A stretch of 64,000 bases of DNA from Rhizobium lentis (GTDB taxonomy: Bacteria > Pseudomonadota > Alphaproteobacteria > Rhizobiales > Rhizobiaceae), in contig NZ_CP071454.1 in the NCBI RefSeq assembly GCF_017352135.1, positions 434,001 to 498,000 of the forward strand, written 5' to 3'. Shown here piece after piece: positions 50,233-52,972 of this stretch; the first letter of the stretch is position 1, and every line of letters begins with the position of its first letter. Under the pieces are notes generated by a model that did no database searches, had not been told where the DNA came from, and saw only the letters and a list, made by a program, of their open reading frames with translations. The position numbers and the translations under genes were made by a program.

Positions 50233-51207
50233 ATGCCCGCCCGCCACACAAAGGTGCTCATCATCGGTTCCGGACCCGCGGGTTATACTGCCGCAGTCTA
50301 TGCCGCGCGCGCCATGCTGAAGCCGGTTCTGATCGCCGGCCTCGAACAGGGCGGCCAGTTGATGATCACCACCGATGTCGAGAATTATCCGGGCTTTGCC
50401 GATCCGATCCAAGGCCCCTGGCTGATGGAGCAGATGCTGCAGCAGGCACAACATGTCGGCGCCGAGATCGTCAATGATCTGGTGACCGAAGTCGACTTGA
50501 ACCAGCGCCCCTTCGTCGCACGTACCGACAGCGGCCAAGTCTGGACCGCAGATACGCTGATCATCGCCACCGGCGCCAAGGCTAAGTGGCTCGGTATCGA
50601 GAGCGAGCAGCATTTCCAGGGCTTCGGCGTTTCGGCCTGCGCCACCTGCGATGGCTTCTTCTATCGCAACAAGGATGTGATCGTGGTCGGCGGCGGCAAC
50701 AGCGCCGTCGAAGAGGCGCTCTATCTCTCCAATATCGCCAAGTCGGTCACATTGGTGCACCGCCGCGACTCCTTCCGGGCAGAGAAGATCCTGCAGGAAC
50801 GCCTGTTCGCCAAGGAGAACGTCAAGGTGCTGTGGAACACCGAGGTGGCCGAGATCACGGGAACGCCTGCCAAGCCGCCGATGCCGCCGTCGGTATCCGG
50901 CGCGCGCCTGCGCGATGTCAGAACCGGCGCGATCACCGAAATGGCGATCGACGGCGTCTTCGTCGCGATCGGCCATGCGCCGGCAACCGAGCTTTTCAAG
51001 GGCAAGCTGAAGCTGAAGGAGAATGGTTATCTCTGGACCGCGCCGGATTCGACTGCGACCAGTCTGGAAGGGGTCTATGCCGCCGGCGACGTGACGGACG
51101 ATACGTTCCGCCAGGCTATCACCGCCGCCGGCCTGGGATGCATGGCAGCGCTTGAGGCCGAGCGCTATCTGACGGGTCACATGCCCGTCGCCGTGGCCGC
51201 GGAGTAA
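50233..51207 (+). CDS. trxB: Thioredoxin-disulfide reductase
   Basis: The 324-residue flavoprotein reduces thioredoxin with NADPH. It has the FAD loop IGSGPAGYTAAVYAARA (11-27), the redox-active CATC (Cys136, Cys139) in SACATCDGFFY, the NADPH loop VVGGGNSAVEEALYL and the C-terminal FAD segment YAAGDVTDDTFRQAITAAG. lsrB follows 22 bases after its stop on the same strand. Confidence 0.96.
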   Translation: MPARHTKVLIIGSGPAGYTAAVYAARAMLKPVLIAGLEQGGQLMITTDVENYPGFADPIQGPWLMEQMLQQAQHVGAEIVNDLVTEVDLNQRPFVARTDSGQVWTADTLIIATGAKAKWLGIESEQHFQGFGVSACATCDGFFYRNKDVIVVGGGNSAVEEALYLSNIAKSVTLVHRRDSFRAEKILQERLFAKENVKVLWNTEVAEITGTPAKPPMPPSVSGARLRDVRTGAITEMAIDGVFVAIGHAPATELFKGKLKLKENGYLWTAPDSTATSLEGVYAAGDVTDDTFRQAITAAGLGCMAALEAERYLTGHMPVAVAAE

Positions 51208-51229
51208 GATCGGCATGAGGGGCGGGGGA

Positions 51230-52126
51230 ATGCCATTGGATTGGGACAAGCTGCGTATTTTTCACGCAGCTGCCGAAGCGGGTTCGTTCACGCATGCGGC
51301 GGACAAACTGCATCTGTCTCAATCCGCCATCAGCCGCCAGGTCAGTGCGTTGGAGCAGGATGTCGGCACCAAGCTGTTTCACCGTCACGCGCGCGGGCTG
51401 ATCCTGACGGAACAGGGCGAACTGCTTTACCGCACCGCCCATGACGTGCTGCTCAAGCTCGAAACCGTGAAGATGCAGCTCACCGAGACCACCGAGACGC
51501 CGTCCGGCAAGCTGCGCGTCACGACAACGGTCGGCCTCGGCCAGGGCTGGCTCACCGACAAAATCCAGGAATTTCTGCAGCTTTATCCCGACGTGCAGAT
51601 CCAGCTCATCCTCGACAATGAGGAAGTGGATGTGAACATGCGCCATGCCGACTGCGCGATCCGGCTGCGCCAGCCGCAACAGTCCGACCTGATCCAGCGC
51701 AAGCTCTTCACCGTGCACATGCACGTCTATGCGGCCCCCTCCTATATCAATCGCCACGGCGAACCGCAGAAGATCGAGGATCTCGACAATCACCGCATCA
51801 TCACCTTCGGCGAACCGGCGCCGAGTTATCTGCTCGACGTCAACTGGCTCGAAGTCGCCGGCCGCTCCTCGGACAACAAGCGGATCCCGCATCTGCAGAT
51901 CAACAGCCAAACCTCGATCAAACGCGCCTGCCTGCTCGGAATCGGTGTCGCCTGCCTTCCGGATTATATCGTCGGCCGCGATCCCGGCTTGATTCAGCTG
52001 GCGATCAACGCCGATGTGCCATCCTTCGACACCTATTTCTGTTATCCGGATGAGATCAAGAACGCAGCCAAGCTGAAAGCCTTCCGCGACTTCATCGTCA
52101 GCAAAGCCAGAAACTGGAACTTTTAA
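51230..52126 (+). CDS. lsrB: LysR-family regulator LsrB/VtlR
   Basis: The 298-residue LysR protein has the DNA-binding helix in SFTHAADKLHLSQSAISRQVSALEQDVG. Its neighbours identify it: trxB upstream and the AbcR genes and arsR downstream, as for LsrB of Sinorhizobium (VtlR in Brucella). Cys residues at 142 and 234 fit the redox-active positions reported for LsrB after an offset of four. LsrB affects symbiosis, LPS and glutathione; VtlR activates an AbcR gene. The start MPLDWDKLRIF at 51230 is chosen over an in-frame start at 51215. Confidence 0.9.
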   Translation: MPLDWDKLRIFHAAAEAGSFTHAADKLHLSQSAISRQVSALEQDVGTKLFHRHARGLILTEQGELLYRTAHDVLLKLETVKMQLTETTETPSGKLRVTTTVGLGQGWLTDKIQEFLQLYPDVQIQLILDNEEVDVNMRHADCAIRLRQPQQSDLIQRKLFTVHMHVYAAPSYINRHGEPQKIEDLDNHRIITFGEPAPSYLLDVNWLEVAGRSSDNKRIPHLQINSQTSIKRACLLGIGVACLPDYIVGRDPGLIQLAINADVPSFDTYFCYPDEIKNAAKLKAFRDFIVSKARNWNF

Positions 52127-52163
52127 GCCAGTTTTATGGAATGATTTCCATACTATGCAGAGA

Positions 52164-52185
52164 GCGCATAACTGGCATGCACAAA
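52164..52185 (+). promoter_or_regulatory. Upstream element of first AbcR gene (candidate LsrB box)
   Basis: GCGCATA-ACT-GGCATGCACAAA lies 6 bp before the -35. The identical pattern, with only the middle three bases changed, occurs at the same distance before the second gene (52387-52408). Conservation of spacing and sequence suggests a shared activator site. Confidence 0.6.
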
Positions 52186-52191
52186 TGTGGG

Positions 52192-52220
52192 TTGCCGTTT
52201 GCCCATTAAACCACCATATC
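52192..52220 (+). promoter_or_regulatory. Promoter of first AbcR gene
   Basis: -35 TTGCCG (52192-52197), a 17-bp spacer and -10 CATATC (52215-52220). The second gene has the same spacing and the same -10. Confidence 0.65.
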
Positions 52221-52226
52221 GCACAT

Positions 52227-52342
52227 AGCTGATGCACATGGTGGCTTTTCCTCCCAGTTCCACCGCATTAGCTGTTCCCCTCTGGAGGTTTTTAACCTTC
52301 ACACTTATAAGGGCCCTGGTTTTCCAGCGGCCCTCTTTTTTT
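52227..52342 (+). ncRNA. abcR: AbcR-type (alpha-r15) small RNA, first copy
   Basis: The roughly 116-nt RNA is predicted from its promoter to the T-run at 52336-52342. It has a single-stranded CTCCCAG segment, then CACCGCATTAGCTGTTCCCC followed by a CTCTGGAGG hairpin, and a terminator GGGCC...GGCCCTCTTTTTTT. AbcR RNAs pair through their CU-rich, anti-ribosome-binding motifs with Hfq and repress ABC-transporter mRNAs. It lies between lsrB and arsR, the known Sinorhizobium location. Ends are estimated. Confidence 0.88.
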
Positions 52343-52386
52343 GCCTTGGCTCAGCGGAAAATGCCGCACCGCAAAAAAATTGTGCG

Positions 52387-52408
52387 GCGCATAGCAGGCA
52401 TGCACAAA
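52387..52408 (+). promoter_or_regulatory. Upstream element of second AbcR gene (candidate LsrB box)
   Basis: GCGCATA-GCA-GGCATGCACAAA, 6 bp before the -35, matches the element at 52164-52185. Confidence 0.6.
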
Positions 52409-52414
52409 AAAGCA

Positions 52415-52443
52415 TTGAAACCTGCCTAAGGAAGCACCATATC
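52415..52443 (+). promoter_or_regulatory. Promoter of second AbcR gene
   Basis: -35 TTGAAA (52415-52420), a 17-bp spacer and -10 CATATC (52438-52443). Confidence 0.65.
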
Positions 52444-52449
52444 CCTTTC

Positions 52450-52564
52450 AGCTGATGCATTTCGTGGTTTCTCTCCCAGTACCACCGCATTAGCTGTTCC
52501 CCTCTGGAGGTTATTGACCTTCACAATTCAAAGGGCCCTGGTTTTCCGGTGGCCCTCTTTTTTT
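52450..52564 (+). ncRNA. abcR: AbcR-type (alpha-r15) small RNA, second copy
   Basis: The roughly 115-nt RNA is the tandem partner of the first copy. The core CACCGCATTAGCTGTTCCCC and the following CTCTGGAGG are identical, the 5' stem-loop differs (GCATTTCGTGG against GCACATGGTGG), and the terminator is GGGCC...GGCCCTCTTTTTTT with T-run 52558-52564. Which copy is AbcR1 and which AbcR2 cannot be told here. Confidence 0.88.
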
Positions 52565-52633
52565 GCCCAAAATTTGCGCACGGGCAAAAAGCAGCCGCCT
52601 CACGTCACCGTGATTTGCATATCGAAGCTGGCC

Positions 52634-52649
52634 GATCGATATATCGATC
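52634..52649. promoter_or_regulatory. Perfect 16-bp palindrome upstream of arsR
   Basis: GATCGATATATCGATC is a perfect palindrome 30 bp before the arsR start. ArsR-family repressors bind such sites in their own promoters. Confidence 0.55.
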
Positions 52650-52678
52650 AAAGACGATTTATAGTTCGGCAAACGACG

Positions 52679-52972
52679 ATGGACAAAGACGAGATCATTA
52701 AGGCGCTCGCCCATCCCACCCGGATGGACATTCTGAACTGGCTGAAAAATCCCGAGCAGCATTTTCCAACGCAGGAGCATCCCTTCGAGATGGGCGTCTG
52801 CGCCAGCCAGTTCGAACGCTGCGGCCTATCGCAATCCACGGTCTCGGCCCATCTCGGAACGTTGCATCGCGCCGGCCTCGTCACCACCAGGCGCGTCGGT
52901 CAGTGGATCTTCTACAAACGCAACGAAGAAACGATCGCCGCTTTCCTCAAGCAGCTAGCCCAGGATCTTTAG
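52679..52972 (+). CDS. ArsR-family transcriptional regulator
   Basis: The 97-residue protein has a winged helix with FERCGLSQSTVSAHLGTLHRAGLVTTRRVGQWIFYKRNE. Two Cys (MGVCASQFERCGLS) precede the recognition helix and may form a metal or redox site, but the classical ELCVCDL motif is absent. It lies downstream of the AbcR genes and one base before the MFS gene, so it probably controls that exporter. The ATG at 52679 fits the family start. Confidence 0.88.
   Translation: MDKDEIIKALAHPTRMDILNWLKNPEQHFPTQEHPFEMGVCASQFERCGLSQSTVSAHLGTLHRAGLVTTRRVGQWIFYKRNEETIAAFLKQLAQDL

Follow-up and report, generated by a model that had tools for sequence, protein, structure and literature searches.

The small RNAs AbcR1 and AbcR2 serve as models for the riboregulation of nutrient uptake in rhizobia and related bacteria, and the balance between redundancy and specialization of the two RNAs varies by species. 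RNAs of their family (ar15/AbcR) typically bind Hfq and repress the mRNAs of ABC transporters. The account of described systems given here is based on seven publications (PMC7486931, PMC8844928, PMC10746234, PMC12595884, PMC11975290, PMC3712013, and PMC7143759). In S. meliloti, the abcR1 promoter (PabcR1) contains a GCAT-N3-TG-N3-T box between -61 and -49 and is shifted by LsrB in gel shift assays; most PabcR1 sequences also contain a tandem T-N11-A motif (PMC8844928). Removal of the box region reduced PabcR1 reporter activity more than 22-fold, and in the absence of LsrB the promoter was only twice as active as the truncated version (PMC8844928). The same GCAT-N3-TG-N3-T box was described for VtlR of A. 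tumefaciens (PMC7486931). In Brucella, AbcR2 is the only AbcR named as a VtlR target in the accessible part of PMC12595884. Furthermore, another small RNA of S. meliloti, NfeR1, is under LsrB control (PMC10746234). The specificity of the S. meliloti AbcRs has been attributed largely to different expression and not to different targeting (PMC8844928).

We analyzed a window of 64,000 nucleotides of Rhizobium lentis (contig NZ_CP071454.1, positions 434,001 to 498,000) that contains an lsrB locus with two AbcR genes. The order of the genes, all on the + strand (i.e., trxB, lsrB, two ar15/AbcR genes, and an arsR-type gene), is the one known from S. meliloti. The trxB gene (50233..51207; thioredoxin-disulfide reductase, TIGR01292 over cut-off) is a conserved neighbor that is also present in S. 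meliloti Ak57. It is followed by lsrB/vtlR (51215..52126; alternative start, 51230), which encodes a LysR-type regulator that is 87.4% identical to the protein encoded at the equivalent locus of S. meliloti; this identity and the trxB-lsrB-abcR-arsR order identify the gene as the lsrB orthologue. The AbcR1-type sRNA (copy 1; 52227..52339; 125.7 bits; fold z, -4.99) ends in its own terminator, and the AbcR2-type sRNA (copy 2) lies at 52450..52561 (116.1 bits; fold z, -4.89). Both match positions 1 to 112 of Rfam model RF02345 (gathering score, 40 bits), and both have a predicted three-hairpin fold with a Rho-independent terminator. An ArsR/SmtB-type regulator gene (52679..52972; NF033788 over cut-off) is the downstream neighbor, and a gene of similar kind is found in S. 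meliloti. The original prediction, which had called for two AbcR-type RNAs of about 115 nt with identical core segments next to an upstream lsrB, is borne out by Rfam lengths of 113 nt (copy 1) and 112 nt (copy 2), by a longest identical stretch of 31 nt between the two RNAs, and by the end of lsrB at 52126. A coding explanation of the sRNA region was given a low rating, as the overlapping open reading frames all look spurious.

The two AbcR genes share an upstream element, which occurs twice in the window with zero mismatches. As had been noted, it lies exactly 6 bp before the -35 of each copy (TTGCCG at 52192..52197 + for copy 1; TTGAAA at 52415..52420 + for copy 2), and both promoters have a 17-bp spacer and the -10 sequence CATATC (52215..52220 + and 52438..52443 +). 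In 100 shuffles, the element at up to three mismatches was found 0.03 times on average, and two occurrences were never reached; a chance origin of the shared element was considered and rated low. The element is an inverted repeat (dyad), GCAT-N7-ATGC, that encloses the published LsrB/VtlR box GCAT-N3-TG-N3-T, so the shared string consists of the known box plus flanking letters. Putative LsrB box 1, GCATAACTGGCATGC (52166..52180, +), and putative LsrB box 2, GCATAGCAGGCATGC (52389..52403, +), both match the dyad at 8/8 letters and extend from -61 to -47 of AbcR1 and AbcR2, respectively. The two dyads have different central letters (T in copy 1, A in copy 2), and the published box therefore reads on the + strand in the former and on the - strand in the latter. 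These positions refer to a predicted start site, set at position 1 of the ar15 model in the same frame for all loci; the frame is calibrated, because it places the box of an S. meliloti record precisely at -61. By itself, the dyad is no rarity (at up to one mismatch, the window contains 39 matches against 42 expected), and its weight is in its fixed position and its conservation. No dyad of at least 7/8 was found between 45446 and 52166, and there is thus no sign of lsrB autoregulation via this box.

Conservation was assessed in a near-kin sample composed of the window and the best 80 of 457 stretches from an LsrB scan, mostly from Rhizobium. Of these 81 loci, 77 contained two ar15 copies, two contained one, and two contained three. 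The dyad was present at 7/8 or better in all 81 first copies (8/8 in 80), in all 79 second copies (8/8 in 74), and in both third tandem copies, and the position was either -61 or -62 in every case. A match to the published consensus, on one strand or the other, was found in 81/81 first, 77/79 second, and 2/2 third copies. In a shift control with these 162 copies, matches of at least 7/8 occurred at -61 in 156 and at -62 in 6, and the next best offset (-70) yielded 18. Mean entropy over the eight dyad columns, calculated from 76 distinct promoters per copy (promoters with the box at -62 excluded), was 0.013 bits for copy 1 and 0.037 bits for copy 2 versus 1.44 and 1.39 bits upstream, and none of 100,000 random sets of eight columns was as conserved as the dyad in either copy. 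The case for a candidate LsrB/VtlR site had been made partly dependent on the motif occurring in related rhizobia. Its presence there, along with the published box at the published position, supports the LsrB reading; the further proposal that one activator serves both copies gains support from the box in 79/79 second copies, from which control of copy 2 is predicted.

Outside the box, the two copies differ systematically. An ATGC half-site 11 bp upstream of the dyad (52155..52158, + in the window), matched at three or more of its four letters, was present in 75/81 first copies versus 1/79 second copies; in 62/79 second copies, a similar stretch was located 4 bp nearer and off phase. Lacking this third half-site, copy 2 may have a low affinity. 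At a fixed frame, the -35 was TTGC in 58/81 first copies and TTGAA in 56/79 second copies (2 more were off by a base), and the center of the box was T in 75/81 first copies and A in 56/79 second copies. The TTGAAA of the window is the same as the RpoH1-type -35 of S. meliloti abcR2, and the core of copy 2 (ATTGAA-N17-CCATAT) departs from the RpoH1 consensus (CTTGAA-N16-CCTATAT) just as S. meliloti abcR2 does. The RNAs differ as well. The first anti-Shine-Dalgarno (aSD1) loop was UUCCUCCCA in 81/81 first copies (52248..52256, + in the window), while second copies had an altered loop, UCUCUCCCA, in 62/79 (52470..52478, + in the window), UUCCUCCCA in 16, and another sequence in 1. In both window RNAs, aSD1 is a CU-rich part of the 5' loop; the UCCUCCC of copy 1 is replaced by CUCUCCC in copy 2, and the aSD2 sequence UUCCCCUC is present in both.

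Other genera of the family were represented by 86 ar15 copies in 47 genomes, taken with Rfam coordinates from the better-scoring part of a longer list. Among these, the dyad was found at 7/8 or better in 42/43 lsrB-linked first copies and was retained down to 68% LsrB identity; the exception (genome G017) had a 6/8 dyad and failed the published consensus. The literal published consensus was present in 36 of the 43 first copies and failed in 7. The later lsrB-linked copies were boxed in only 5 of 24 cases (two in G046, two in G100, and one in G097), the 19 unboxed copies including those of G017 and G120 as well as one in G100. In each of three named strains (S. meliloti Ak57, Sinorhizobium sp. 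M103, and Shinella sp. PSBB067), copy 1 had an 8/8 box, and copy 2 had no box of at least 7/8 and a core of TTGAA...CCATATC. Of the ar15 copies without a linked lsrB, 10/19 were boxed. Separately, tandem arrays of three to four AbcR genes were observed behind lsrB at three loci (L044 in G100, L209 in G046, and L127 in Metarhizobium album), with a dyad of at least 7/8 in all but one of their ten copies. A telomere resolvase, which we take to be a marker of Agrobacterium, was detected in G017 and G120 and was absent from 16 other genomes tested; on this basis, the genus of both was taken as Agrobacterium. The unboxed copy 2 of these two Agrobacterium-like genomes is in line with the failure of abcR2 promoter DNA to compete for Agrobacterium VtlR (PMC7486931). 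In S. meliloti and Agrobacterium, the two published cases, an unboxed copy 2 goes with a lack of LsrB control or VtlR recognition. On the lsrB tree (39 scorable of 49 chosen rows), the boxed copy 2 needs three changes, and none of 500 shuffles gave a number as low. The boxed copy 2 is, as judged from these sequences, a lineage-bound trait, for which gain and loss are both possible.

The sequence, position, and conservation of the boxes and the lineage contrast in the copy 2 box are established directly. From them we infer a regulatory model that covers binding and activation by LsrB, an RpoH1 input, the relative strength of the sites, and a split of targets, as follows. We consider it likely that both AbcRs are switched on by LsrB at GCAT-N7-ATGC dyads, that copy 2 may also take RpoH1, and that the targets of the two RNAs are split. 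Each AbcR gene would have its own promoter and its own dyad, centered near -54, as a binding site for the LsrB encoded next to it, and dyad-bound LsrB would contact RNA polymerase and turn both RNAs on together. The third half-site of copy 1, one helical turn upstream, would probably make it the stronger site. Because copy 2 keeps the TTGAAA/CCATAT core of S. meliloti abcR2, a response to RpoH1 is also possible in this clade. The coactivated RNAs would differ in their first aSD loop (UUCCUCCC versus UCUCUCCC) and have the second in common, so that a single signal would act on two sets of targets with partial overlap. Several observations run counter to this reading: copy 2 lacks the third half-site, 2/79 second copies failed the published consensus, copy 1 of the Agrobacterium-like G017 has only a 6/8 dyad, 7/43 first copies of other genera failed the literal consensus, and S. 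meliloti LsrB had no effect on the abcR RNAs under the conditions of PMC7486931 (PMC8844928 reports the opposite for abcR1).

The position of the copy 2 box, which stays at -61/-62 in 79/79 second copies, bears on a reading in which LsrB drives copy 1 only, while copy 2, as in S. meliloti, yields a stress RNA under RpoH1 and has a box left over passively from tandem duplication. Much in the copy 2 promoter would suit this reading (i.e., TTGAAA and CCATAT at the S. meliloti abcR2 spacing in this clade, the frequent TTGAA at -35, and the missing third half-site), as would the scarcity of boxes in later copies outside the Rhizobium set. However, few positions of the copy 2 promoter are as conserved as those of the dyad, in contrast to the upstream sequence, which has drifted to a mean entropy of 1.39 bits, and the R. 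tropici-type copy 2, with TTGC and no RpoH-like -35, nevertheless retains the box. We regard control of copy 1 alone as rather unlikely.

The similarity of the two promoters could also be due to tandem gene conversion, in which case homogenization and not selection would explain the conservation of the copy 2 box. The 31-nt identical core in the window and the near identity of both RNAs in some loci fit such a process, which would be expected to place copy-1-like, T-centered boxes with copy 1 flanks repeatedly at copy 2. The reverse was seen: the box centers differ systematically (T in 75/81 versus A in 56/79), as do the linker, the -35, and the upstream half-site. These differences indicate that the promoters are not overwriting each other in most loci, making this explanation very improbable. 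We give scarcely any credence to the idea that the element belongs to a different regulator with a GCAT...ATGC-like site and lies next to lsrB by coincidence. The dyad by itself is not rare and the LsrB site here is a predicted one, which leaves some room for another protein, but the position and consensus match those in work on LsrB/VtlR in S. meliloti, Agrobacterium, and Brucella (PMC8844928, PMC7486931, PMC10746234, and PMC12595884), the protein encoded in the window shares 87% identity with LsrB of S. meliloti, and the dyad persists in nearly all lsrB-linked first copies of other genera, even at the lowest LsrB identity.

Boxed AbcR genes are not confined to the lsrB locus. The genome of R. 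lentis contains a third ar15 copy (C5:71362-71473; L023) on a 270-kb plasmid-like contig, with an LsrB-type box, GCATAGGTGCATTGC, at -61. The 321-bp region of this gene is also found unchanged in R. leguminosarum plasmid pPR4 and matches 384 PLSDB records, of which 273 are typed as conjugative and a few are of chromosome size. In 24 plasmid loci, read from 40 evenly spaced among the 384 matches, a dyad of at least 7/8 was present in 19 and the published consensus in 18. The copies of p42a and Neorhizobium SOG26 were below this threshold (6/8 each), that of pAtK224a had a 7/8 dyad and failed the published consensus, and the plasmid ar15 loci of S. fredii NXT3b, Rhizobium T1473, and Roseibium had no box. 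The boxes of the plasmid-borne AbcRs look most like the Brucella version. At four plasmid loci (pRi1724 [L180], p42a [L186], Shinella p2 [L188], and pAtK224a [L191]), the AbcR gene came right after a large gene for a DEAD/DEAH helicase, and in three of the four a ParB-like gene followed at a greater distance; this helicase-linked AbcR looks like a plasmid-backbone sRNA. At least three ar15 matches were detected in 79/100 genomes of the genus, and three AbcR homologs were already known in S. meliloti (PMC7143759). The plasmid copies are also predicted, from their boxes, to be controlled by LsrB; if they are, mobile replicons carry sRNAs that connect to a redox regulator of the chromosome.

Boxes at a fixed place were also found upstream of ar14 (NfeR1-type) RNAs. 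Five ar14 copies were over the cut-off in the R. lentis genome. Relative to the model start, the box was at -56 in two of these (L234, C1:2284397; L235, C1:1750322) and at -95 in a third (L237, C3:144373); L236 offered nothing better than an inferior 7/8 match at -126, and L238 had no upstream box of 7/8. Of 60 genus genomes searched, 30 had ar14 loci; among the 29 readable loci, the box was at -56 in 26, with a tie in L266, and was below 7/8 in L256 and L267.

Genome wide, a loose scan allowing three mismatches gave 721 places against 203 in a reversed control and was useless alone. A promoter-anchored pattern (half-sites, spacer, TTG, and CAT) gave 34 places in the R. lentis genome versus 2 in the reversed control, 2 of the 34 being the AbcR promoters; the pattern did not isolate the regulon and was rejected as a regulon finder. 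The strict dyad GCATNNCWGNNATGC had 16 sites in this genome versus 0 in the reversed control. Of the 13 other strict-dyad loci, 9 were within open reading frames of at least 94 aa as judged by a crude scan, including the one at an ar14 promoter (L172), and among strict-dyad matches we restrict our claim to the sRNA sites. One side observation concerns a 47-aa open reading frame at C1:430726 (C1:430635-430866; L165 and L285), 3.4 kb to the left of the window. A perfect dyad precedes it, followed by 11 bp, TTGTGA, 17 bp, and TATACG, with the same box-to-TTG spacing as at the AbcRs. The frame had no Pfam match and was found in 2/81 genomes, the one relative detected lacking an exact dyad at this place; as a further LsrB target, it is a lead.

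Taken together, these data incline us, by a modest margin, to the view that LsrB of Rhizobium is a hub for anti-Shine-Dalgarno RNAs, i.e., the tandem AbcRs, a plasmid AbcR that can arrive prewired on conjugative plasmids, and several ar14 RNAs. Within this hub, the LsrB site of copy 2, together with its altered first seed, would turn the S. meliloti logic of different inputs with the same seeds into the same input with different seeds. The site at copy 1 restates known biology, and the class of site is already known. What is new is the boxed copy 2, which points to a lineage-specific rewiring and whose predicted sharing of LsrB control goes against the published pattern in the two species tested. 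We found no published description of an LsrB box on Rhizobium abcR2 or plasmid AbcRs in the mostly open literature consulted without supplements (e.g., the promoter alignment of PMC8844928). Relative to the original prediction, the present analysis adds the dyad, the prior literature on the box, a third copy, and two features of copy 2, namely, its RpoH1-like core and its changed loop.

Brucella AbcR1 is not known to be a VtlR target, and Eisfeld et al. (2021) reportedly deal with LsrB and many Agrobacterium sRNAs. The VtlR-abcR2 pair of Brucella resembles the present locus in having a LysR regulator near the AbcR that it activates, and its 15-base motif, read on the opposite strand, is the GCAT-N3-TG-N3-T box (PMC12595884). 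The VtlR/LsrB regulon of A. tumefaciens (abcR1, atu1667, and vrsA) has the same regulator and class of box, but DNA of the abcR2 promoter was no competitor for VtlR in that species (PMC7486931), and the two Agrobacterium-like genomes have no box at copy 2, whereas the Rhizobium copy 2 is boxed. In the NfeR1/ar14 system, LsrB likewise activates an anti-Shine-Dalgarno sRNA via a similar motif, consistent with the fixed-place ar14 boxes of this genus, although the RNA family is different and NfeR1 is also repressed by NtrC in S. meliloti (PMC10746234). The lsrB-abcR1-abcR2 locus of S. meliloti is alike in gene order, copy 1 box at -61, RNA family, and promoter cores (PMC8844928 and PMC3712013). 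There, however, only abcR1 is boxed and LsrB dependent, abcR2 being LsrB independent and RpoH1 dependent, and both aSD motifs are identical in AbcR1 and AbcR2 (PMC8844928); here, both copies are boxed and aSD1 of copy 2 is changed. The Rhizobium arrangement thus predicts a division of labor opposite to that of S. meliloti, which appears to combine like seeds with unlike promoters, whereas Rhizobium appears to combine like activator sites with unlike seeds.
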